Below are positions 1-22,636 of a DNA stretch of 22,636 nt, piece after piece. Position 1 is the first letter of the stretch. Every line of letters starts with the position of its first letter. Source of the stretch: a virus. The position numbers and the translations under genes were made by a program. The stretch is taken from positions 1 to 22,636 of IMG/VR virus record IMGVR_UViG_3300046011_005515, one strand, 5' to 3'. A model generated the notes under the pieces. It had not been told where the DNA came from. It saw only the letters and a list, made by a program, of their open reading frames with translations, and searched no databases.

Positions 1-873
1 CGGGATGCGGCTGTGGACCCTGATAGCGTTCCGTTGCAGTTTCGTGGGAAGCCGGTTGATACGCCTTGGAACGACGACATTCGCGAACGATGGGCGGATG
101 ATTTTGTGGGTTTAAACGAAGACGACGCAGACGCTTTTGAGGAACTGCTAGGCAACTTGTCGCAGGTAAATAACCTGAATGACGTAAAAAACGTCCTTAG
201 TAATGTAAGTCCAAGGGCGCGGGCGCTGTATAATACTCGCGTAAGGGGTGATTTGGTTAAGCCGGATTTTGGCCCCGGCTCGATGTATGAGGTCGGCATT
301 AACGCTAGCCCAGACACCTTCCTTGATTGGGACAGGCCGCTAAGGGAGCAAAGCGAGGCGGTGCGTCGTGCTTATGCACAGGCGCGAGCGAGCGGCGACC
401 CGCTAGTAAGCGATTTGCTTGGTGATCTGAGCGACCCGACGCAACTGAGCCTTGCTGGCCTGTTTCCCAATAGCGGTGGGGCGCAAGCCTACAACTCGTT
501 AACACCTGAAGCCGCCGAGGCGTCACGCCGTTTGAATGAATACGGCATCAGCGGAATCCGGTATTTTGACGCTAACTCGCGCGGGCCAGAAGAGATTTAT
601 AACGTTGGCGTTCCAACCGACGATTTCGGCCCATATTCGCCTTACACGTCTATGGATGACGCAAACGCTCAATTGGAAATGTTGCGCCGCGCCGGGTTTG
701 GTAACGCCGAGATAAAGACGCAAGCGCAGCCTCGCTCATCTAACTACGTCCTATTTGACGACGAACTTGTCAAAATCATACGGAAGTATGGTATAAGCGG
801 TTTGGGCCTTGGAGCTGGCCTAAGCGCATTCGGGTATAACGAACCCGCCGAACAATCTTTGCCCGACCTTTAA
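1..873 (+). CDS. C-terminal part of a phage polyvalent-type protein (5' end outside window)
   Basis: The frame is open to the left edge, so the GTG at 13 is probably internal and this is the last ~290 residues of a longer protein. Seen: a block with YEVGINASPDTFLDWDRPL, then GISGIRYFDANSRG, then NYVLFDDELVKIIRKYG, followed by a short Gly/Leu tail. From memory of the family, this order (a 'Y-x-V...FLDWD' strand, a 'G-I-x-G-I-x-Y-x-D' turn and a terminal 'NYV-x-FDD' strand) is typical of C-terminal domains in very large phage 'polyvalent' proteins, some of which are assigned to ADP-ribosyltransferase-like folds (ART-PolyVal). Such proteins are often packaged and injected. Lying just upstream of the terminase genes it may be the last gene of a late block. 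The enzymatic assignment is uncertain; an inactive structural domain is the main alternative. Confidence 0.6.
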   Translation, partial: RDAAVDPDSVPLQFRGKPVDTPWNDDIRERWADDFVGLNEDDADAFEELLGNLSQVNNLNDVKNVLSNVSPRARALYNTRVRGDLVKPDFGPGSMYEVGINASPDTFLDWDRPLREQSEAVRRAYAQARASGDPLVSDLLGDLSDPTQLSLAGLFPNSGGAQAYNSLTPEAAEASRRLNEYGISGIRYFDANSRGPEEIYNVGVPTDDFGPYSPYTSMDDANAQLEMLRRAGFGNAEIKTQAQPRSSNYVLFDDELVKIIRKYGISGLGLGAGLSAFGYNEPAEQSLPDL

Positions 874-12639: not shown

Positions 12640-15014
12640 TGCAGCAGTGGCCGGGAACGCCTGTTAATCAGCCGCCCGCTGCGCCGCAAGCGCAATGGCC
12701 GGGGCAACCTGTCGCGCCCGTTGCCGTTGCTCCCGCACCCGCTCGCCAGCCCGCACCCGCTCGCGCGGCTGGTAATCGTCCCGCTCCCTCCGCACCGCTG
12801 AACGCCCTCGGCATCACGGATGAGGAAGAGATTGCTGCACTGACGGCTCAATACGGCTCGCGGGAACGTGCGCTGGAGGAACAAGCGGCGCGCGTTGCTG
12901 CTGACCCGAACTATGACCCCGGAATGGCACCGGCTCAACCGGCGCTGGACCGGGCCGACGCTATCGACGAATGGTTTTTGCGGCGCGACGCCACCCGTGC
13001 GGCGGGCATCCCGCTTCAATCGCTTGAGGGCGTAGGAAATGAGCAAGTGCGGACCGTTGCCGACCGCGCTTACGCTGCTCCGCAGACCGGCGGGCGCATT
13101 CAGTTTCAGCCGTGGCTCGCGCGTGAACCGCGCTTTGCATCCGGTGATCTTGGCGAGATAGACCCGCAGTCGGGCGGACCAGTGATAAACCGTGCGGGCA
13201 TTTTGGAACGCGGCAACGGGCAGTTTGAAATCTATGACCCCGCATCCGATGCCTATTATCCGGCGACCCAAGCGGAGGTCAACGATTATCAGGGGCAGCT
13301 TGCGGGCGAGCGTAAGGTCCGCATGGACCGCTTGGCGCGTGAGGCCGACCCGAAATATCAAGCCGAATACGCAGCCGCGCAACGGGGTGCCGAAAACATC
13401 CCGCCGTGGCTGATGAACCTAACGCAAGGGCAATCGCTTGGCGCTGTTCCTTATGTTCTCGGTGCAGCAAGCTGGGCCGCGCCGTTCACGGACGACATTG
13501 ATCGAGGGCTGGCCTCGCAAGCCGCCCGCGACGCTGTGCGGGACCGATTTGACGCCCTTATAGCCAATGACCCGTTAGGGTCTGTCGGTATGCAAATGGT
13601 CGGGGGCCTTCTCACGCCGGGATTGGCGCAAGCCAACACCTACATTGGGGGGGCAACAGGTGCGACCCGCGCCGGGCGAGCGGCAGCGGTTAGCGGCGGC
13701 TACGGCGCTGCTTCAGGCGCATTTAACACCGAAGGCGGGCTTCTTGACAAAGGCCAAGGGGCGCTGCTCGGGGGCGCGGTTGGGGCGGGGGCCGGTGGAC
13801 TTTTGGACCTCGGGCTTCAACGCGGAGCGGCGAATGCGGCGGCGCGGGCGGCTAATCCGGGTCCCGTTCGTCAACTGTCTCGCGCTGGGGTTAATATGAC
13901 GCCAGCGCAACTGTTGAGCGAGGTTCCTCTTGTCGGGCGTATTGCGAGGACGCTTGAGCAAGGCGCGGCATCCATTCCGTTTGTTGGCGCTGTTCCTGCG
14001 TCCGCAGAGCGCGAGAGTGTGCGGAGCTTTGGTCGGGCTGCAATCAATCAAGTGTTGGATATCATTGGGGAGCAGTTGCCGGACGGCGTGTCGGGGCGAG
14101 AGGCTATTCGGATAGGGGATGACCTCATTTCGGCTCGATACCGTGCCGACCTTGGCCCTGTAACCATCTCGCCTGACCCGCAAATAAACGCGCGTATCCA
14201 AGCGGCTATTAACCCCGGCAATATGTCCGCTGCGACCCGCGACAAGTTGAGCGATTCGGCGCAGGAAGTTGTGCAACGGATGCAAGGGCCGCTTACGGGC
14301 GAAGAATGGAAGCAGTTGGATTCGGAACTTTCCGCTGCAATAAACAGCGCTGCACAAGGCGGGCCAGAAAACCGGCCTCTTGCTCAAGGTTTGCGGAATG
14401 TCCGCACGATATTTGGTGATGCGCTAGAACAGGCATCGCCGGGAACGCTGGCGAGGGTCCGCGAAACGGACGATGCCTACGGCAATTTTCAACTTATCCG
14501 CAAGGCCGCAAGCAACCCGACCACGGGGCGCAATGACGAACTATTTACGGCGTCAAACCTGAATAGCGTTCTTGCCCGATCTGAGGGGCGAGCCTACGGT
14601 CGCGGCGAAGCTCGCTTGCAAAACCTCACTGACCCGGCAGAGCGCGTTATGGCCGGAACTTTGCCTAACAGCGGCACGGCTGAACGCTTGGCGACTATCG
14701 GTCTGGCGACCACAGGGGCTGGGGCTGGCACAATCGTAAACCCCGCCGTTGCCATTCCTGTAGTCGCTGGCGTGTCCGCGCTTTATTCAAAGCCCGTGCA
14801 AGTGGCGATAAACGCTATTTATCGCGCCACGGACCATCGCGCCGCCCGTGCTGCAAGCGCTGCTCTTGCGGAACTTCGGGACTTTGCAGCCCGTGACCCG
14901 GCTGTTCAGCCGTATTACCTAGAAGCCGCTCGGCACATTCAAGGCGTTCTTGAAGGTCCAGAACAAGGGCAAACGCCAAGAGCAACAGGGCTGCTATCCC
15001 CCACTTCCCCATAA
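12636..15014 (+). CDS. Putative DNA ejection protein with glycine zippers
   Basis: The 792-residue product begins with a Pro/Ala/Gln repeat (PPAAPQAQWPGQP, PAPARQPAPARAA, about 10-50). A soluble domain follows with RFDALIANDPLGSVGMQMVGG. Gly/Ala-rich stretches at about residues 325-395 (IGGATGATRAG, GGYGAASGAFN, GALLGGAVGAGAGGLLDLG) look like glycine-zipper membrane-inserting segments. VPLVGRIARTLEQGAASIPFVG (about 425-450) and a second hydrophobic block ATIGLATTGAGAGTIVNPAVAIPVVAGVSALY (about 688-720) add potential membrane-active helices. These features fit an ejection protein that forms a channel through the host envelope. No lytic transglycosylase motif is seen. The function is inferred from architecture and position. 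Confidence 0.7.
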   Translation: MMQQWPGTPVNQPPAAPQAQWPGQPVAPVAVAPAPARQPAPARAAGNRPAPSAPLNALGITDEEEIAALTAQYGSRERALEEQAARVAADPNYDPGMAPAQPALDRADAIDEWFLRRDATRAAGIPLQSLEGVGNEQVRTVADRAYAAPQTGGRIQFQPWLAREPRFASGDLGEIDPQSGGPVINRAGILERGNGQFEIYDPASDAYYPATQAEVNDYQGQLAGERKVRMDRLAREADPKYQAEYAAAQRGAENIPPWLMNLTQGQSLGAVPYVLGAASWAAPFTDDIDRGLASQAARDAVRDRFDALIANDPLGSVGMQMVGGLLTPGLAQANTYIGGATGATRAGRAAAVSGGYGAASGAFNTEGGLLDKGQGALLGGAVGAGAGGLLDLGLQRGAANAAARAANPGPVRQLSRAGVNMTPAQLLSEVPLVGRIARTLEQGAASIPFVGAVPASAERESVRSFGRAAINQVLDIIGEQLPDGVSGREAIRIGDDLISARYRADLGPVTISPDPQINARIQAAINPGNMSAATRDKLSDSAQEVVQRMQGPLTGEEWKQLDSELSAAINSAAQGGPENRPLAQGLRNVRTIFGDALEQASPGTLARVRETDDAYGNFQLIRKAASNPTTGRNDELFTASNLNSVLARSEGRAYGRGEARLQNLTDPAERVMAGTLPNSGTAERLATIGLATTGAGAGTIVNPAVAIPVVAGVSALYSKPVQVAINAIYRATDHRAARAASAALAELRDFAARDPAVQPYYLEAARHIQGVLEGPEQGQTPRATGLLSPTSP

Positions 15015-15075
15015 ACGGCAAGCCGATCACGGCGACGACGATAACGGCGGCTCTCCACATTCCTTACCCTAACAC

Positions 15076-15097
15076 AAAAACGCTCCCATTGGGAACG
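15076..15097 (-). terminator. Minus-strand intrinsic terminator before the tailspike cassette
   Basis: Read on the minus strand, CGTTCCC-AAT-GGGAGCG forms a 7-bp stem with one G-U pair (plus coordinates 15081-15097), followed by TTTTT (15080-15076). On the plus strand the equivalent pair is a C-A mismatch and the run is A, so the signal points leftward. It lies in the 100-base gap between the ejection gene and the tail cassette and may stop antisense transcription entering the structural operon. Confidence 0.4.
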
Positions 15098-15114
15098 CTG
15101 TCTCGCGAGGCGCT

Positions 15115-15501: not shown

Positions 15502-17984
15502 GTATTGTTCGGGTCCAGCTTGGGGGGCAGACTGTCCCGGTTCAAGTCCTGTCGTCAGGGTTTGCACGGGCTAATGAGGCGGTATCGGAGGCTGCTGCAT
15601 CGGCGGCGGCTGCTGCTGCGTCGGCGGCGGCGGCTTCGGCTACGCTTGCGGCGGCGGCGCTCAAGGCAAACAACCTGTCAGACCTTACATCCGCTTCAAC
15701 GGCAAGAGCAAATCTTGGGCTAGGGTCTATCGCAACGCAATCGGCTAGCGCTGTTGCGATTACGGGCGGCGCTATTGCGGGGATTACCGATCTGGCCGTA
15801 GCTGATGGTGGCACGGGCGCGTCTGACGCATCAAACGCTCGCACAAACCTTGGCCTTGCTATCGGCACAAACGTCCAAGCGTATGACCCGGACCTTCAAG
15901 CTATAGCGGCCCTGACCTCCGCTGCTAACAAGATGCCCTACGCCACCGGCGCGGGAACGTGGGCAATGGCCGACCTGACCTCGTTTGCCCGGACCCTGCT
16001 GGCCACGGCGAACAATAGTGCCTTCCTTGCTGCGCTGGGGCAGATTGCTTCGTCGTTCGTGGATTTTATCCAGTCGGGCGCTGGCGCTGTCACTCGCACG
16101 GGCCAAGCCAAACTGCGGGACGCCGTGTCCGTTAAGGACTTCGGCGCGGTCGGAGACGGGGTGGCTGATGATACTGCCGAAATAGCAGCGGCCCTTGCGG
16201 CCCTCGCAACGGCTGGCGGTGGAACTCTGCTGTTCCCTCCCGGCACCTATTTGATTTCTGCGGCTATCTCGCAACTGTTCGGCAACTCGGCCAACGTCCA
16301 CCTGATCGGCTACGGCGCGACTATCAACGGATCGTCTGTGACGGGCGGATCGCCCGGCGACACGACGCTGTTCAAGTTGGGTGGCCAGCGTTTGACCTCT
16401 AGCCTGTTGAGCGCCAGCCCCGCTAAGGGGGCGCTGTCGATTGCAACCACTTCCGCAATCGGCGCGGTCGCGGGCGAAATCGTCCTCATCACGTCAACGG
16501 ACCTGTGGAACCCGACGCGGGCAACCTACTACAAGGGCGAACTGGCCGAAGTTCGGAGCGTAGCGGGAACGACGCTTAATCTTTCATCTCCGCTGTTTGA
16601 TGGATATACCGCTGCGACGACGACCGTTCACCGCCTCGCCATGCCGAATGTGACTGTCGAGGGTTTGACGTTCCAAATGAACGCTAATCAGCTTTGCCTG
16701 ACGGTGGCTTACGCCAGAAACCCAAGCATCATTAACTGCGTTGTGCGCGGGGCAAGATACGCGGGGATTTCTGCCGACTATTTTTATGGTGGCGTTGTTT
16801 CCGGGTGCCAAGTGTCGGACGGTTGGTATAGCGGGACCGGAACTTCATACAGCATTTCGGTCGGGTCAGGCCAAAACTTAAAAGTGGTGAATAATGATCT
16901 GTCGGAAGCCCGGCACAACATTGCAACAGGCGGCGCGGAGCCTGCCCGCTACGTTTTGATTGACGGCAACACCTGTCGGATGCATCCGTCCGAAGCTAAT
17001 ACCATGTCAATAGACCTGCACGGCAACTGCGAATACTGCACGGTCACAAACAACTTTGCCGAAGGTGTGCTTACGGCTGGCATTAACCTGACTATTTCAA
17101 ACAACACAATCACAGGCAATCAAGCCACGCCGCTGCTGAACATTTTTCAAGAAATCAGCAGCGATTTTTACATCATTACGAACAACGTGTTTCGTGGTTT
17201 GAACGGCTCAAGCGTGGCACTGTCTGTAACGCCAACGCAAACCAATCTGGTCATTACGACGCTGGATTTCAGCGGAAACTATGTGTTGACCGCAGGGGGC
17301 GGTGTCCGGTTGCAGCCGCGAAACTCGGGAGCGACCGGATGTTCGATCGCTCGCTTGCGTATTCGAAACAACGACATGACGGCGGGCGCGCTGCAAGCGT
17401 TTGTGCTCACAAACTCGGGGGCGGCGACCTACACCGTTAATATCGACAGCGCAAACAACGTGTATGCATCTACGGCGCAGGACAGCTTTGTCATGGACGC
17501 GGGGAACCCCGCGACGACGGAAAGCCGTAACGACGCGTTCCGCTCAAACCGTGCGTCTGGCAGCGCCGCCTATTTTGCGGGTTCGTCTGTCTATCTGGAC
17601 AGCCCGTCGTTTGTCGGCAACACGGGAGGGGCGGGCGACAGCCGTTCGGTGTTCTATGAGAACTCGGGCAAAGTCACGATCATTAACCCGTCGTTTTCGG
17701 GCATCAATATCTATCGGGCGGAAAGCTCAACAATCACGGAATACGCGGAGACAAACTTTGCCACGACCGGCGTGGGGTTGTCACTTCCCGCCGCTTGCCG
17801 GATTATCAGCCATTACGAAGCGCCAGCCATATCGGTTTCCTATGGCGCAGCGGCTCCGACGACGGGGGCTTGGGTGGTCGGAGAGCGGCGTTATAACAAC
17901 GCGCCAGCTGTTGGCCAGCCTAAGTCTTGGGTCTGCACGGTCGCTGGAACGCCGGGGACTTGGGTTAGCGAGGGCAATCTGTAA
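15498..17984 (+). CDS. Tailspike with pectate-lyase-type beta-helix
   Basis: The receptor-binding and probably polysaccharide-degrading spike. In 828 residues one sees: an N-terminal virion-binding segment and an Ala/Ser-rich helix (about 28-55); a fibre shaft with repeated 'NLSDLTSASTARANLGLG' and 'DGGTGASDASNARTNLGLA' modules; the DPDLQAIAAL and KMPYATGAGTWAMADLTSFARTLL module (about 130-168); the beta-helix opening VKDFGAVGDGVADDTAEI (about 212-229) and LLFPPGTYLI, diagnostic of Pectate_lyase_3; and many NN, NNV and GN turns up to ~690. The C-terminus (VVGERRYNNAPAVGQPKSWVCTVAGTPGTWVSEGNL) matches a cap frequent in phage spikes. Substrate cannot be told. It is the last gene of the structural operon and overlaps the following gene (TAATG). 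Confidence 0.9.
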   Translation: MSIVRVQLGGQTVPVQVLSSGFARANEAVSEAAASAAAAAASAAAASATLAAAALKANNLSDLTSASTARANLGLGSIATQSASAVAITGGAIAGITDLAVADGGTGASDASNARTNLGLAIGTNVQAYDPDLQAIAALTSAANKMPYATGAGTWAMADLTSFARTLLATANNSAFLAALGQIASSFVDFIQSGAGAVTRTGQAKLRDAVSVKDFGAVGDGVADDTAEIAAALAALATAGGGTLLFPPGTYLISAAISQLFGNSANVHLIGYGATINGSSVTGGSPGDTTLFKLGGQRLTSSLLSASPAKGALSIATTSAIGAVAGEIVLITSTDLWNPTRATYYKGELAEVRSVAGTTLNLSSPLFDGYTAATTTVHRLAMPNVTVEGLTFQMNANQLCLTVAYARNPSIINCVVRGARYAGISADYFYGGVVSGCQVSDGWYSGTGTSYSISVGSGQNLKVVNNDLSEARHNIATGGAEPARYVLIDGNTCRMHPSEANTMSIDLHGNCEYCTVTNNFAEGVLTAGINLTISNNTITGNQATPLLNIFQEISSDFYIITNNVFRGLNGSSVALSVTPTQTNLVITTLDFSGNYVLTAGGGVRLQPRNSGATGCSIARLRIRNNDMTAGALQAFVLTNSGAATYTVNIDSANNVYASTAQDSFVMDAGNPATTESRNDAFRSNRASGSAAYFAGSSVYLDSPSFVGNTGGAGDSRSVFYENSGKVTIINPSFSGINIYRAESSTITEYAETNFATTGVGLSLPAACRIISHYEAPAISVSYGAAAPTTGAWVVGERRYNNAPAVGQPKSWVCTVAGTPGTWVSEGNL

Positions 17985-18274
17985 TGACCCCACAAGAACA
18001 CATCGACGCCATCGGACGGGCGGTCGTTCAGGTGGAAGCCGCCGTAAAGGTCATGCAAAAAGCGATACAGTTAGCGGACCAACGAGACCCCGCTGCAAAG
18101 GCTATGCGGAAGGCGACGGAGCAGGCGGAAAAAAGCCTTGCCCTCCTTCACGCAAGGCTGGACAAGGCGCAGAAAGCCTACATGGCCACGCGCGACGGAA
18201 AGAACATCGTTGCTTTCTCTGGGGGCACGTCAAAACCGCCTGTTGACGATCCTGATAAGCCTATTAAGCCGTAA
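17984..18274 (+). CDS. Coiled-coil protein with Pro/Asp/Lys tail
   Basis: A 96-residue protein of unknown function. Residues 1-70 form one long charged helix with Ala-rich heptads (QVEAAVKVMQKAIQLADQRDPAAKAMRKATEQAEKSLALLHARLDKAQKAYM). A linker GKNIVAFSGG leads to the tail PPVDDPDKPIKP. The ATG shares a base with the tailspike stop (TAATG). The tail peptide is almost identical to the end of the HNH endonuclease encoded next, PPVNDPDKPVKP, which marks a duplicated gene end. The neighbouring membrane genes and endolysin suggest an accessory or lysis-region role, but nothing in the sequence shows it. Confidence 0.75.
   Translation: MTPQEHIDAIGRAVVQVEAAVKVMQKAIQLADQRDPAAKAMRKATEQAEKSLALLHARLDKAQKAYMATRDGKNIVAFSGGTSKPPVDDPDKPIKP
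18236..18271 (+). repeat. Duplicated gene end, copy 1
   Basis: Encodes PPVDDPDKPIKP at the end of the coiled-coil gene. Aligned codon by codon with 18739-18774 it is identical at 26 of 36 bases; eight of the ten differences are at third positions. The two flank the HNH open reading frame. Confidence 0.7.
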
Positions 18275-18276
18275 CC

Positions 18277-18777
18277 ATGAACGCTTTTTTTGATCGTCAC
18301 GAAGCCAAAATCGAATACGGCTCTCCGACCGGCTGCTGGCTATGGAACGCGGGCGCTGACAAAGACGGATATGGCAAAGTGTTTTCTGGTGGTGAAACTC
18401 GCGTTGCTCACCGTATTGCCTATGAATCTGTTCACGGGGATGGGGCTGCGGCAGACATCCTAGTTCGCCATCGCTGCGACACTCCATCTTGCGTAAACCC
18501 GAATCACCTTGAGCTAGGAACCTTTGCTCAAAACAACCGCGACAGAGTCGTGCGCGGCAGGTCGATAAAGGGGGCGGCGCACAAGCTATCAAAACTTTTG
18601 GAAAGTGATGTGCAAATGATTCGTGCGCTGCATATTCCGCAAAGTCGCGAATTTAGTCACAACGCGCTTGCACGACGTTTTGGGGTTTCACGACCCACTG
18701 TCGCAAGAATTATTGCCCGAACGGCGTGGACGCATTTGCCGCCCGTCAACGACCCCGACAAGCCGGTGAAGCCATGA
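18277..18777 (+). CDS. HNH homing-type endonuclease with C-terminal HTH
   Basis: A free-standing nuclease, probably a selfish mobile gene. The 166-residue product shows an N-terminal GCWLWNAGADKDGYGKV (residues 19-35), AHRIAYE (44-50), and the HNH_3 core VRHRCDTPSCVNPNHLELGT (63-82) with His65, Cys67, Cys72, Asn74 and His77 in place. A NNRDRVVRGR segment follows, then a helix-turn-helix near the C-terminus (LARRFGVSRPTVARIIA, about 132-148), typical of DNA-targeting modules fused to HNH cores. The final 12 residues PPVNDPDKPVKP copy the end of the upstream gene. It begins two bases after that gene's stop and overlaps the next gene by ATGA. The catalytic residues appear intact. Confidence 0.9.
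   Translation: MNAFFDRHEAKIEYGSPTGCWLWNAGADKDGYGKVFSGGETRVAHRIAYESVHGDGAAADILVRHRCDTPSCVNPNHLELGTFAQNNRDRVVRGRSIKGAAHKLSKLLESDVQMIRALHIPQSREFSHNALARRFGVSRPTVARIIARTAWTHLPPVNDPDKPVKP
18739..18774 (+). repeat. Duplicated gene end, copy 2
   Basis: Encodes PPVNDPDKPVKP at the end of the HNH gene, followed by a TGA that overlaps the ATG of the membrane gene. Removing the segment from 18236 to 18738 would place this tail on the coiled-coil gene and restore an ATGA junction like most others in the window, so this copy may be the original gene end. Confidence 0.65.
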
Positions 18778-19447: not shown

Positions 19448-19704
19448 TGAACTTGCCAGAGCGCAACTACGCTACGCTCGACGCGCTGGCCGTCATTGGC
19501 TCGCTCGTCATTGTCGCGGGCATCGTGGCGGGCTTGTTTATCTACCAACTGGACCCGGCTGTTGCCCCTATTGTCTCGGCCTTGGCTACGGCAATCCTTG
19601 GCATCCCGGTATCCTACGGCGCTTTCCGGTGGGGTAGCAGTGTGGGGGCGAAGAACGCTCAAAACCCGGCGGGCCAGCCGCCTGTTGAGGAGAATCAGCC
19701 GTGA
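19447..19704 (+). CDS. Two-span membrane protein, holin candidate
   Basis: The 85-residue product carries two hydrophobic helices, LAVIGSLVIVAGIVAGLFIYQL (about 14-36) and VAPIVSALATAILGIPVSYGAF (about 39-60), then a polar, Pro-rich C-terminus (AKNAQNPAGQPPVEENQP). Size, two spans and position immediately before the endolysin gene fit a class II-type holin that would permeabilise the inner membrane. The endolysin has no signal or SAR segment, so some holin is needed nearby. Starts with TGATG coupling and overlaps the endolysin start. Confidence 0.65.
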   Translation: MNLPERNYATLDALAVIGSLVIVAGIVAGLFIYQLDPAVAPIVSALATAILGIPVSYGAFRWGSSVGAKNAQNPAGQPPVEENQP

Positions 19705-20249
19705 GTAAGGCGCTTTTTGACGCTGTAAGGGCCATTAAGGGCGCTCCGCTGACACAGGCAGACGTGGACGCCATAAACGCGGCAATGGCCCCTGTAGCGG
19801 CTCCTACGGGCAAGCGCGTTAGTCCTGCTGGCATCGCGCTCATTCATTCGTTTGAATCGTGCAAGCTGACCGCCTATCCAGACCCCGGCTCGGTTGACGG
19901 TAAGCCGTGGACGATTGGTTGGGGTTCAACCGGACCCGGTATCGCCAAGGGTGTCGTATGGACGCAAAAGCAGGCGGATGATCGGTTTGCTGCTGACCTT
20001 GGCCGGTTTGAAAAAGCGGTCGCGCTTATGGCTCCCATGACGACGCAAAGCCAATTCGATGCGCTTGTGTCGTTCGCCTATAACGTCGGCTTGTCGGCTT
20101 TGAACGACAGCACCTTGCTGAGATTGCACAAAGCGGGTGATTACGCGGCTGCTAAGGCGCAGTTTGCCCGTTGGGACAAAAACGACGGGAAAGTAATGAA
20201 GGGCCTTACGCGGCGGCGGGCTGCGGAATCTGCTTTGTATGGCTCCTAA
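19701..20249 (+). CDS. Endolysin, GH24 lysozyme
   Basis: A muramidase that cleaves the MurNAc-GlcNAc bond of peptidoglycan. In 182 residues: an N-terminal helical leader (ALFDAVRAIKGAPLTQADVDAINAAM, about 4-29), then the catalytic domain with SFESCKLTAYPDPG holding the presumed catalytic Glu52 and Asp61, and TIGWGST with Thr71, the T4-lysozyme type E-D-T set. SFAYNVG (about 117-123) and a C-terminal GLTRRRAAESALY, both typical of GH24, follow. No signal peptide or SAR domain is seen, so release depends on the holin. The GTG start overlaps the holin-candidate stop. A strong GC hairpin follows its stop. Confidence 0.92.
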   Translation: MSKALFDAVRAIKGAPLTQADVDAINAAMAPVAAPTGKRVSPAGIALIHSFESCKLTAYPDPGSVDGKPWTIGWGSTGPGIAKGVVWTQKQADDRFAADLGRFEKAVALMAPMTTQSQFDALVSFAYNVGLSALNDSTLLRLHKAGDYAAAKAQFARWDKNDGKVMKGLTRRRAAESALYGS

Positions 20250-20254
20250 CGAGA

Positions 20255-20282
20255 AGCCCCGCCAACCGAAGCTGGCGGGGCT
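20255..20282 (+). terminator. Strong GC hairpin after the endolysin gene
   Basis: AGCCCCGCCA (20255-20264) pairs perfectly with TGGCGGGGCT (20273-20282), loop ACCGAAGC. It lies 5 bases after the endolysin stop. There is no T run on either side, so it may be a factor-dependent terminator or an mRNA-stabilising end rather than a classical intrinsic terminator. Confidence 0.55.
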
Positions 20283-20284
20283 AT

Positions 20285-20348
20285 CCGGCTTGTGGCCGGG
20301 AAGATAGGGGCTAATGCCCGGTGCGGTCCTACTATCCGGTTGTGCCGG
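20285..20348 (+). repeat. Pair of similar hairpins with TTGTG loops
   Basis: CTATCCGGC-TTGTG-GCCGG (20281-20299) and CTATCCGG-TTGTG-CCGG (20332-20348) share the left flank CTATCCGG and the loop TTGTG. The second lacks exactly one base pair, lost from both arms. Between them lies a third small hairpin, GGGC-TAAT-GCCC (20308-20319). Confidence 0.5.
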
Positions 20349-20511
20349 TTTCAGACCACTTGAGAGAGTCCGCTTTCATCACCCCGCCTACGGTAAACGT
20401 AGGAAGTCCGATTGCAGACGCTCGCGCTTGCGGGTTGCAACTACCACACCAAAACCTGACGGGAGGCCGCTCGCTCTACCCTTATAGGCTATCTGTGCTA
20501 GGATGTCACCC

Positions 20512-20796
20512 ATGAACATTCCGACCGAAATTCGCCGCTGGATTGCGCTAGGCGCTCTAATCGTCGCCCTTCTATTTGCGGGCGCGGTTCTGACCATGTG
20601 CCAAGCCCGGAACCGAGACGACAATCGAACGCAAGTCGCGACCGGAAAAGCGTTAGACCGGGTAGCGACTGAAACCCCTGTCATTCGACAAGAGCAAGAG
20701 GACAAGCAACGTGAAGTCGATCAAATCCAAGGTGCTGATACTCCCCTTCCTGACGGCTTCGGCGCTGATCTTGAGCGGGTGCGGAGGGGCGGCTAA
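20512..20796 (+). CDS. Rz-like inner-membrane spanin (i-spanin)
   Basis: Acts in the last lysis step, joining with the outer-membrane spanin to fuse the membranes. The 94-residue product has a short basic N-terminus (IPTEIRRW), one membrane helix (about 11-29, IALGALIVALLFAGAVLTM), and a periplasmic coiled-coil-like region (ARNRDDNRTQVATGKALDRVATETPVIRQEQEDKQREVDQIQ). ATG at 20512 has AGGA at 20500-20503, spacing 8; an in-frame ATG at 20503 would add three residues but overlaps that Shine-Dalgarno. The lipoprotein gene starts inside its 3' end, the classic Rz/Rz1 layout. Assigned by architecture, since spanins are poorly conserved. Confidence 0.75.
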   Translation: MNIPTEIRRWIALGALIVALLFAGAVLTMCQARNRDDNRTQVATGKALDRVATETPVIRQEQEDKQREVDQIQGADTPLPDGFGADLERVRRGG

Positions 20797-20986
20797 CGTC
20801 GTCATCCCGGAAAGCCTGAAAGCCCCTTGCGTCTCGACTGTGGACGTAAGCACGGCACAGACCGTTGGCGATCTAGGCCGTGCAATAGTTGCTCAAGATG
20901 GTGACCTCCGCGTTTGTGACGTAAAGCGCGAGGCAATCGTCGCTATCGCAGAAAGTCAAAACCGCGTGTGGTGGTGGCCCTTCTAA
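20711..20986 (+). CDS. Rz1-like outer-membrane lipoprotein spanin (o-spanin)
   Basis: The 91-residue precursor has a basic start (MKSIKSK), a hydrophobic core (VLILPFLTASALI) and the lipobox LSGC with Cys24 as lipidation site; the mature part is about 68 residues. DLGRAIVAQDGDLRVCDVKREAIVAIA resembles the C-terminal helix of other Rz1-like proteins, and the chain ends in WWWPF. The GTG start has GAGGA at 20698-20702, spacing 8, inside the i-spanin gene, giving an 86-base out-of-frame overlap. Its stop runs into the end of the convergent minus-strand operon. Confidence 0.75.
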   Translation: MKSIKSKVLILPFLTASALILSGCGGAANVVIPESLKAPCVSTVDVSTAQTVGDLGRAIVAQDGDLRVCDVKREAIVAIAESQNRVWWWPF

Positions 20987-21069
20987 CGCCTCTGGTCCTC
21001 CCGAATCCACAACTGACAGAACGCGGCCACGGCGATAAAGAACCCGGCGAGAAGCAAGTCGGTCATCAT
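20983..21069 (-). CDS. 28-residue membrane microprotein
   Basis: MMTDLLLAGFFIAVAAFCQL followed by WIREDQRR: one hydrophobic helix with a charged C-terminus. The ATG (21069-21067) overlaps the stop of the upstream gene by ATGA, and AAGGA lies about 10 bases before it in that gene's last codons. The 3' end overlaps the o-spanin end by three bases in convergent orientation. Size and form resemble other phage inner-membrane microproteins; the function is unknown. Confidence 0.6.
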   Translation of the reverse strand: MMTDLLLAGFFIAVAAFCQLWIREDQRR

Positions 21070-21260
21070 AGTCCTATCCTTTTCAGTTCGTCTGAAATTG
21101 AAGGAGGTTCTGGCCATGTTTTGTGCCAGTCAGCGGCTTGGAGCGCGGCGGTGCGGCTTCGATAGTTCCGCCCGCCACTGTGCCAAATGCCGTTTTGAGT
21201 GAGCGTGAAGGACCATCGGTCGCCGTCCTGCTCAAGCTCGGTGTGCCATGTGTCAGTCAT
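21066..21260 (-). CDS. Small hypothetical protein (64 aa)
   Basis: Soluble, aromatic-rich product: WHTELEQDGDRWSFTLTQNGIWHSGGRNYRSRTAALQAADWHKTWPEPP. The Trp and Gly/Arg pattern suggests a small beta fold followed by a helix, but I recognise no family. Its Shine-Dalgarno AGGAG lies in the final codons of the upstream 46-residue gene, with the start 8 bases inside that gene. Probably an early or accessory phage gene. Confidence 0.7.
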   Translation of the reverse strand: MTDTWHTELEQDGDRWSFTLTQNGIWHSGGRNYRSRTAALQAADWHKTWPEPPSISDELKRIGL

Positions 21261-21393
21261 GGTCTTCTCCTGTAAGGGCGGCTCGGATTAGGTCGCGCAC
21301 AAGTTTCCGTTGGTCTCGCGCGTCTTCAATCAGTTCCTCTGTGGTGTGAACGCCGAACAGTTCAAGCCACTTCACGGTTGCCCGAACGTCCAT
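21253..21393 (-). CDS. Small hypothetical protein (46 aa)
   Basis: MDVRATVKWLELFGVHTTEE, then LIEDARDQRKLVRDLIRAALTGEDHD, a short helical product. The ATG (21393-21391) shares a base with the TGA of the upstream gene (TGATG) and has AGGAG with 7 bases spacing. Its last codons (ACA GGA GAA) form the Shine-Dalgarno of the next gene. Its C-terminus RAALTGED is identical to that of the upstream 110-residue protein because of an exact 24-base repeat. Function unknown. Confidence 0.65.
   Translation of the reverse strand: MDVRATVKWLELFGVHTTEELIEDARDQRKLVRDLIRAALTGEDHD
21263..21286 (-). repeat. 24-base direct repeat at gene junction, copy A
   Basis: Identical to 21397-21420. On the minus strand it encodes the end RAALTGE of the 46-residue protein and carries the Shine-Dalgarno AGGAG of the 64-residue gene. 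Confidence 0.85.
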
Positions 21394-21725
21394 CAATCTT
21401 CTCCTGTAAGGGCGGCTCGGGCTTCGATCACATCAACGTTGAGAGCGCAGATGTTGACGAAGCCTTTTGCAGCAGTCGGTTTGACTTGAGCGAACGGCCA
21501 TAGCGCTTTCCGCAGCCTCTCTATCTCAGCGGCTTGGCGTTCAAGGGTGTCGGCGCTCCCTACCGGGACGACAGGGGCTGCTGCGAGCATGTCCTTCCAG
21601 ACGCCGATCAGCGGCCCGTAACTGTCCAACCGGACGAGAGGCATCAGCGCCTCGCGGCCATTCACCAACATTGCCTCTGTCGGCTCTACCGGAACAGTCC
21701 GCCAAGCCTTTAGTTTCTCGCTCAT
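21393..21725 (-). CDS. Conserved small phage protein (110 aa)
   Basis: The product starts MSEKLKAWRTVPVEPTEAML, continues with NGREALMPLVRLDSYGPLIGVWKDMLAAAP, then a coiled coil (DTLERQAAEIERLRKALWPFAQ) and the end VIEARAALTGED. 'VPVEPTEAM...W..ML.AAP' is a recurrent opening of short phage proteins of unknown function. It overlaps its upstream gene by ATGA; AAAGGTGA serves as Shine-Dalgarno. Its end contains the second copy of the 24-base repeat. No catalytic motif is visible. Confidence 0.75.
   Translation of the reverse strand: MSEKLKAWRTVPVEPTEAMLVNGREALMPLVRLDSYGPLIGVWKDMLAAAPVVPVGSADTLERQAAEIERLRKALWPFAQVKPTAAKGFVNICALNVDVIEARAALTGED
21397..21420 (-). repeat. 24-base direct repeat at gene junction, copy B
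   Basis: Identical to 21263-21286. On the minus strand it encodes the end of the 110-residue protein and the Shine-Dalgarno of the 46-residue gene. Confidence 0.85.
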
Positions 21726-21994
21726 CGTTCATCACCTTTCTGGTTGAGGGCGCGTTGGGCTTCCGTCACCACTTGCCCGAGGCGGCGCATAGCCCCACCA
21801 TCATCACGCAGCGTCGTAATCGCGATCCGCTCCAAAACCCGGCGCTGCTCTTGGTATGCTTTCAGGAGGGCGCGGGTGCGGCACAGAAAGTCCCGCGAGA
21901 CTTTTGTTTGTCCGTCGCGGCAGTCTGCGATTGAAAACTCAATGTCACGCAGCAGCCGCCCCTCCATATCAGCGGGGAGTTCGTCGGGGGTCAT
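21722..21994 (-). CDS. Small helical phage protein (90 aa)
   Basis: Charged, helical product: MEGRLLRDIEFSIADCRDGQ, then FLCRTRALLKAYQEQRRVLERIAITTLRDDGGAMRRLGQVVTEAQRALNQ. The segment 'RLLRDIEFSIADCR' and the long Arg/Glu-rich helix suggest a coiled coil; no enzyme motif. Both ends overlap neighbours by ATGA. AGGA lies upstream of the ATG within the preceding gene. Function unknown. Confidence 0.7.
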   Translation of the reverse strand: MTPDELPADMEGRLLRDIEFSIADCRDGQTKVSRDFLCRTRALLKAYQEQRRVLERIAITTLRDDGGAMRRLGQVVTEAQRALNQKGDER

Positions 21995-22200
21995 GATGCT
22001 TTCCTCTTGGACTTGGCAGCGGCTCGGGCTTTCGCGCGATCAATCCGCCGCGTCTGATGGTTGCGAGTGTCGGGGTCCGCCGTGAAAGCGTCTATGAATA
22101 CCTCCCGGACCACATGGCGCTTCCCGTTGACCAAAATTGTCTGGCCAACGCGCAAAGTCTTATCGGCACCCGACATGGTGTATACGGGGTCCGAGGTCAT
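21991..22200 (-). CDS. Small basic phage protein (69 aa)
   Basis: An N-terminal beta segment (TLRVGQTILVNGKRHVVREVFID) is followed by a strongly basic tail (RRIDRAKARAAAKSKRKAS). The 'VGQTILVNGKRHVV' strand-turn-strand resembles small SH3-like folds, and the tail could bind nucleic acid; this is inference. The Shine-Dalgarno AGGAG lies 7 bases upstream in the ACAGGAGAA codons at the end of the upstream gene. ATGA overlaps at both ends. Confidence 0.7.
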   Translation of the reverse strand: MTSDPVYTMSGADKTLRVGQTILVNGKRHVVREVFIDAFTADPDTRNHQTRRIDRAKARAAAKSKRKAS

Positions 22201-22532
22201 GATGCTTCTCCTGTGGCTTTTCGGATAGCGTCGAGCGCCTGTCGGCCTTCATCGGTGTCCTCAAGCCGCCAGTTTCCTGCGTCGCCGCTGTCGGCCAGCG
22301 CTTTGTAGCTGGCATACAAGGCCGTCAGCGCCTCCAAAAGATCAGGAGCGGATGCGATAAGGCGAGCGTTGGCTTCGCTTTCTTGAGAAGCGGGCGCAGC
22401 CATGCCACCCCAGTTGACAATGTTTTTCGGCGTTGGTCCGCGCTTTCCGGCGCTAATGCCATACGGGCGCTGTCCGTGACACTCGCTAGTTCTGTCAATC
22501 GTCCACGGCCCCGGCGTATGTTTCGACCCCAT
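22197..22532 (-). CDS. Conserved phage protein with HTPGPW start
   Basis: The 111-residue product starts MGSKHTPGPWTI and has the central ANARLIASAPDLLEALTALYASY, a pair of motifs found in a very widespread group of small phage and prophage proteins of unknown function ('HTPGPW' then 'ANARLIA-APDLLEAL'). ATG at 22532 is preferred; a GTG at 22544 would add four residues and overlaps the upstream gene more. No strong Shine-Dalgarno is visible for either, so translation is probably coupled by the TGATG junction. Its last codons ACA GGA GAA serve as Shine-Dalgarno of the next gene. Confidence 0.8.
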   Translation of the reverse strand: MGSKHTPGPWTIDRTSECHGQRPYGISAGKRGPTPKNIVNWGGMAAPASQESEANARLIASAPDLLEALTALYASYKALADSGDAGNWRLEDTDEGRQALDAIRKATGEAS

Positions 22533-22636
22533 CACAGCCACCACAGGCTGATGACGCCAGCGAGGGCCAGCAGGATGATGATGCTACGCGGGCGCAGCAC
22601 CTCGGCCACGGCGCGAAGCCACATCGGAGGCTCGTC
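22532..22636 (-). CDS. Membrane microprotein at the right edge (possibly partial)
   Basis: The frame is open to the right edge. An ATG at 22624-22622 gives a 30-residue product, MWLRAVAEVLRPRSIIILLA followed by LAGVISLWWL, with one hydrophobic helix after a basic N-terminus. Its TGA shares a base with the ATG of the next gene (TGATG). Upstream codons (DEPP) stay open, so the gene could be longer and begin outside the window. Such short membrane proteins are common between phage early genes. Confidence 0.55.
   Translation of the reverse strand, partial: DEPPMWLRAVAEVLRPRSIIILLALAGVISLWWL

Follow-up and report, generated by a model that had tools for sequence, protein, structure and literature searches.

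A candidate leftward small RNA unit between the endolysin and spanin genes of a viral contig

The locus studied here belongs to a 22.6-kb virus record that was analysed as a whole (the window, to whose full length positions refer unless another locus is named). Its endolysin gene ends in a stop codon at 20247–20249 and the Rz-like spanin gene starts at 20512, leaving 262 nt between them. By reading of the ORF table, this is the longest gap between plus-strand genes and the second longest is only 100 nt (15015–15114), which bears out the 262-base gap described in the initial annotation. The Rz-like gene had no match in Pfam or PHROG and is named for where it lies and for the Rz1-type gene nested within it; with tblastn, 19 of 80 loci matched it. 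The Rz1-like gene matched phrog_456, an Rz-like spanin family (E 6.4e-06), as well as a Pfam family. The features of the region, with the basis of each in brackets, are:

19701–20249, plus strand: endolysin gene, left neighbour of the gap (Pfam Phage_lysozyme PF00959, E 1.2e-39)
20246–20474, minus strand: predicted non-coding transcript of about 230 nt (from promoter and terminator)
about 20254–20247, minus strand: U-rich tail of hairpin A, UUCUCGUU (sequence)
20255–20282, minus strand: terminator hairpin A, 12-bp stem with a cUUCGg loop (present in 6 of 6 units)
20285–20299, minus strand: hairpin H2, CCGGC-TTGTG-GCCGG (CCGGC-CACAA-GCCGG on the minus strand), just upstream of the terminator
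20336–20348, minus strand: hairpin H3, CCGG-TTGTG-CCGG (CCGG-CACAA-CCGG on the minus strand), common to the window and L139
20468–20501, minus strand: conserved block B, holding most of the promoter and the predicted start region (sequence conservation in relatives)
20481–20486, minus strand: −10 box TATAAG (sigma70 matrix rank and no-gap controls)
20504–20509, minus strand: −35 box GTGACA, with a 17-nt spacer to the −10 box (sigma70 matrix rank and no-gap controls)
20512–20796, plus strand: inner-membrane spanin gene (Rz-like), right neighbour of the gap (position and embedded Rz1-type gene)
20711–20986, plus strand: Rz1-like spanin gene, overlapping Rz (Pfam LysC PF23793, E 1.1e-07)

The terminase of the window has matches in 1335 phage records; the 12 matches listed are EBPR podovirus 2 (62%), Sulfitobacter phage phiGT1 (60%), nine Vibrio phages (58%) and a Bradyrhizobium phage (56%). 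No tRNA or tmRNA was found in the window. Integrase PF00589 was matched in none of 10 records, all of them possibly fragments, and the phage RNA polymerase family PF00940 gave no match in 10 records and none in the control genomes either. Three other places in the window deserve mention in their own right. An HNH endonuclease gene (PF13392, E 7.4e-08) at 18277–18777 on the plus strand directly follows the gene at 17984–18274, and the C-termini of the two products, PPVNDPDKPVKP and PPVDDPDKPIKP, are alike, as if the HNH insertion had duplicated the end of the preceding gene. The region around the 100-nt gap (14815–15114) holds a minus-strand terminator-like hairpin at 15099–15079 and a minus-strand ORF of 81 aa, membrane-spanning by eye and without a PHROG match. 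Beyond the spanins, small overlapping ORFs on the minus strand (20983–22544) converge on Rz1, whose stop codon overlaps that of the last ORF in the run; when seven of these leftward ORFs were queried in the fetched loci, three had no relatives and four had between one and four.

The history of the junction was read from related viral contigs, of which the best 80 of 141 endolysin relatives were fetched. With known duplicates removed, 96 loci matched one of two endolysin queries and 35 matched Rz; both genes were recognised, both on the plus strand, in 28 loci, the other 68 endolysin loci being uninformative. Endolysin and Rz overlap or lie within about 18 nt of each other in 21 of these 28, although these are not 21 independent cases because several are near-identical (e.g., L017–L019, L020–L023). 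In the remaining seven (L003, L011, L012, L105, L110, L139, L144) the distance is 237–835 nt, part of it taken up by a small ORF ahead of Rz in L003, L105 and L110. Since the two genes nearly abut in three-quarters of the informative loci, the 262-nt gap is most likely an insertion relative to an abutting ancestral state. Such a position, between genes that are adjacent in relatives, is that of a moron.

Five relatives (L003, L012, L139, L086, which is the same locus as L105, and L082, the same as L110) show the window's layout at the same junction; L139 was added to the set later, via its Rz1. Together these units form a family with conserved ends and variable middles, fixed in orientation and place: block A, the terminator hairpin, directly follows the endolysin gene, and block B directly precedes the first gene of the spanin group. 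The endolysin of L082 and L086 is a glycosyl hydrolase 108 protein (a profile match made on L105) that is not significantly similar to the lysozyme of the window (E 0.11), so that the unit appears tied to the junction rather than to one endolysin. Patterns for A and B were both present in four viral contigs; all four contigs with B also carry A, and in the four unit-bearing contigs searched whole, each block occurs once. A looser B pattern picked out 22 stretches in viral contigs, four of which are known units (L082, L084, L085, L086); the other 18 had no flanking resemblance by eye. Among genome contigs, block B gave no match and hairpin A gave two, in Nocardia and in a Planctomycetota MAG. 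One further match to hairpin A, at up to two mismatches, lies elsewhere in the L011 contig, and comparison of the unit DNA with phage and plasmid collections returned only short matches in nine and two records, respectively, at E 0.2 or worse. The A pattern alone also matches L083 at 795–832 (minus strand), a similar UUCG hairpin in an unrelated phage contig; the idea that this hairpin sits beside a tRNA was dropped, as ARAGORN finds none.

Hairpin A adjoins the endolysin stop codon and has the form of an intrinsic terminator of leftward transcription. On the minus strand its stems are uninterrupted runs of 12–15 pairs capped by cUUCGg in all six units; the tail is only moderately U-rich (e.g., CUUCUCGUUU). 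Read as plus-strand RNA, the same sequence contains A·C mismatches and a wide loop, making a weaker hairpin with no U-rich tail downstream, and in each of three copies compared it folds better as minus than as plus. The covariation alignment comprised six copies, five of them distinct, with L083 included and L139 left out. In it 59 of 60 cells pair, one pair occurring as CG, GC and AU and another as UA and GC, and none of the slid-alignment controls had any pair changed on both sides. The percentage paired, the number of cells with two-sided change and the covariation score were each matched by two of 500 shuffles; the number of pairs with two-sided change and the number of further pair types were unexceptional, being matched by 243 and 128 of 500. 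A stricter terminator scan reported the A terminator in L012, L105 and L110, and missed it in the window and L003. The 12-bp cUUCGg hairpin, with its compensatory changes, would thus supply the intrinsic 3′ terminator expected of an sRNA gene.

At the other end of the gap, adjoining the spanin start and reading leftward, the site GTGACA-17-TATAAG ranked fifth of 225,960 candidates in the window under a sigma70 matrix of approximate frequencies. The homologous sites ranked second in L003, third in L012, first in L105 and fourth in L110, ranks that are not independent because the B blocks of these four relatives are near-identical to each other. Five units share the 17-nt spacing; in five the −10 box ends in G, which counts against the promoter. 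The homologous site of L139 is weak (TTGCAT-16-CATTAT, score 7.44, rank 10). In 15 no-gap loci tested, of the 21, the best minus-strand score near the Rz start was 1.7–7.8, and none of the 15 has a comparable leftward promoter; in the seven gapped loci scored (the window, L003, L012, L105, L110, L139 and L146, with L011 and L144 left out) it was 8.75–11.2, the value of 8.75 belonging to L139 and stemming from a different site, inside Rz. A promoter of its own on the same strand, as an sRNA gene would have, is therefore suggested by the matrix and its controls but not by a stricter promoter scan, which called none at the unit in the window, L012, L105 or L110. That scan reported a plus-strand promoter-like site nearby in L003. 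A match to the Caulobacter-type consensus (PMC8144410) was rejected: the window site agrees with it at 9 of 14 positions, which is ordinary, and the relatives' site at 11 of 14, which several other sites per locus also reach.

Placing the start about 7 nt after the −10 box gives the predicted transcript listed above, which is convergent with the late genes. Counted from the first base past the −10 box as far as the tail (L139 being cut at the start block), the predicted RNAs measure 236 nt in the window, 81 in L003, 173 in L012, 122 in L086, 158 in L082 and 249 in L139. The units largely agree in the first dozen bases and in the terminator but not in the middle, except for a 46-nt block that differs at three positions between the window and L139, and for H2 in some units. 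On coding potential the picture is mixed: four of the six predicted RNAs contain no ATG, the only ATG of the window opens 15 codons, and L139 has an ATG frame of 31 codons. A few GTG or TTG frames of 24–36 codons occur in some units, none seen to be shared on informal inspection.

The initial annotation had drawn attention to at least four stems in the gap, among them two TTGTG hairpins that differ by one base pair. The two hairpins are present, and the stems seen are hairpin A, H2, H3, which is one pair shorter than H2, and CCTACG/CGTAGG at 20387–20403. The accompanying argument, that a loss matched in both arms is a sign of selection, does not amount to independent proof, as the hairpin forms vary across relatives. 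By eye, L139 has the shorter hairpin only (CCGG-CACAA-UCGG on the minus strand, one pair having become G·U), and H2 is differently paired in L086 and L082, reduced to its right arm in L012, and absent from L003 and L139. The L139-type and L086-type hairpins seem to coexist in the window, which would account for its two TTGTG hairpins through mosaic assembly or duplication. Pairing was thus conserved in relatives for hairpin A, as had been proposed as a check, and the picture for the TTGTG hairpins is mixed.

The further claim that the gap as a whole is structured holds for the minus strand only, by a small margin and mainly through the terminator; the plus strand and the rest of the gap are ordinary. 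The gap folds with z = −3.63 as minus-strand RNA and −1.32 as plus-strand RNA, the lowest value among 86 window/strand samples across the contig being −3.59. Without the terminator hairpin, the window's predicted RNA has z = −0.93, so that most of the folding signal comes from that one hairpin. The terminator-free fold is likewise ordinary in L003 and L012; the corresponding z is −1.94 for L086 and −2.1 for L082, where the plus strand scores just as low. Pairing between the conserved 5′ end and the body of the RNA was considered and set aside (shuffle values of 0.026 in L086 and 0.02 in L082, and of 0.43 in the window, 0.33 in L003 and 0.13 in L012).

Taken as a whole, these features make it probable that the gap consists of an inserted non-coding transcription unit, self-contained and read from the minus strand, that separates the endolysin and spanin genes. 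Transcription by host RNA polymerase of the sigma70 type would begin near 20474, and an RNA of about 230 nt would run toward the endolysin gene and stop at the UUCG hairpin beside its stop codon. Because the genes nearly abut in most informative relatives and the 15 no-gap loci tested have no comparable leftward promoter, the unit has the appearance of a non-coding moron, most likely a small RNA gene in convergent orientation to the late genes. If transcribed, the RNA may use its variable part to base-pair in trans, in the manner of prophage anti-sRNAs. Head-on interference with late transcription may accompany this as a side effect, or take its place. Of the three candidates first put forward, the phage small RNA is thus the best supported, with the changes that it lies on the minus strand and that the covarying element is the terminator hairpin and not the TTGTG hairpins; a pure DNA signal found no support of its own. 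A tentative extension is that the units are a family of RNA cassettes, with promoter and terminator constant and the RNA between them swapped or fast-changing.

Among the other readings, the one that shares most with a leftward unit is control purely in cis, which we consider unlikely. Polymerase from promoter B would collide with late transcription and lower or delay spanin expression, terminator A would keep the antisense RNA out of the endolysin gene, and the RNA itself would be inert. A promoter immediately ahead of the spanin start and an RNA predicted to end at the endolysin stop fit such a scheme, and a variable middle between conserved ends suits an RNA of irrelevant sequence; on the other hand, neither the 46-nt block common to the window and L139, with its three differences, nor the partial retention of H2 is needed in a meaningless spacer. 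Somewhat less probable again is that hairpin A merely terminates the leftward cluster at 20983–22544, with B an operator or other DNA site and no sRNA involved. The overlapping minus-strand ORFs downstream of Rz1 would indeed read antisense through the spanins toward A, but B contains a well-spaced, correctly directed promoter and was never found without A, and L004, where three of the leftward ORFs have relatives, shows neither a gap nor such a hairpin.

Improbable too, and slightly more so, is the long plus-strand leader that had been proposed for the spanins, in which the gap would act as a regulatory leader or promoter and hairpin A would end the endolysin mRNA. The gap does lie immediately upstream of Rz and a weaker plus-strand hairpin does form there. 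Against this stand the A·C mismatches and missing U-rich tail of the plus-strand stem, the unremarkable plus-strand fold (z = −1.32), the rank of 461 for the best plus-strand promoter site in block B, and the lack of room for a leader in most relatives (21 of 28 loci). Two further explanations are very improbable. A small plus-strand protein could be read from the ORF at 20321–20515 (64 aa), which shares an ATGA with the Rz gene, its stop overlapping the start codon there in a way common for coupled genes. However, tblastn at E 0.01 did not match it in any of 80 loci, Pfam and PHROG gave nothing for it, its best E in the phage collection was 4, and all four block-B differences from relatives change a residue in this frame when compared by hand. 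The gap could equally be the scar of a lost homing endonuclease gene, minus-strand HNH genes being present at this junction in two relatives (L011 and L012), but L012 has its HNH gene and an intact A–B unit side by side, and the A–B gaps of L003, L082, L086 and L139 are too short for such a gene.

The OOP RNA of phage lambda runs against neighbouring genes and ends at its own terminator. It is a short phage RNA of 77 nt made from its own promoter, pO, and is antisense to cII (PMC12197685). The leftward small RNA favoured here would share with OOP its shortness and its own promoter, but unlike OOP it is predicted to overlap neither neighbouring coding sequence, as its ends would fall between the endolysin stop and the Rz start. 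PAK_P4as15, likewise a phage antisense RNA and one associated with an endolysin gene, is absent from the related phage PAK_P3; it differs in its length, about 550 nt, and in being a proposed repressor of the endolysin itself (PMC12197685). The nearest published pattern is that of the convergent anti-sRNAs AgvB and AsxR (EcOnc01–03), encoded at a moron site of E. coli O157:H7 prophages (PMC4104026). Those RNAs are 51–60 nt long, lie 3′ of PR′, are convergent with the late genes and bound by Hfq, and have a common 3′ region and differing 5′ sides, and two have known targets. The window unit resembles them in being convergent with late genes at a tolerated insertion site and in combining a shared 3′ region with a variable part; it differs in predicted length, which is 81–249 nt across the units, in its endolysin–spanin site and in having a conserved start block as well. 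Because length and position differ, it is not assigned to the AgvB/AsxR class. The available portions of the literature on small or antisense RNAs of phage lysis cassettes and the spanin–endolysin region yielded no comparable case.

Searched against Rfam at the gathering threshold, the window gave nothing. Below it, isrB (RF01386) gave a weak full-model match on the minus strand at 20256–20328, at 25.5 bits against a gathering threshold of 35 (E 0.012 for 361 bases searched and 0.0078 for 241). Much of this match consists of the UUCG terminator and hairpin H2; isrB scored 15.3 bits in L139 (E 2) and gave no match up to E 5 in L105, L110 or L012, L003 having been left out. The resemblance is a weak lead only.

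The endolysin–spanin junction looks like a hotspot for reverse-strand insertions. HNH endonuclease genes lie between endolysin and Rz on the minus strand of L011 (3491–4084) and L012 (3527–4062), and block A of the L012 unit follows the inserted HNH gene. L144 has a minus-strand ORF of 130 aa (1623–2015) within its endolysin–Rz distance of 835 nt. Upstream of Rz in L146 (1710–2195, minus strand) is an ORF (1746–2168) with no PHROG match, which follows a gene with peptidoglycan-binding and weak transglycosylase matches and is flanked by a minus-strand, U-tailed terminator-like hairpin and the top-ranked promoter-like site of that locus; this arrangement is a putative protein-coding version of the same promoter–hairpin layout.

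A search for protein genes sees an empty gap at this locus. Should the RNA be produced, the lysis cassette would include a leftward non-coding gene with the potential to tune lysis or host RNAs; if the units do form a cassette family, the antisense payload, directed at host RNAs or at competing phages, would differ from phage to phage. The constant ends of the unit offer a ready probe for more such units, and the junction itself appears to accept reverse-strand inserts of several kinds: RNA units, HNH nucleases and protein ORFs without assigned function.
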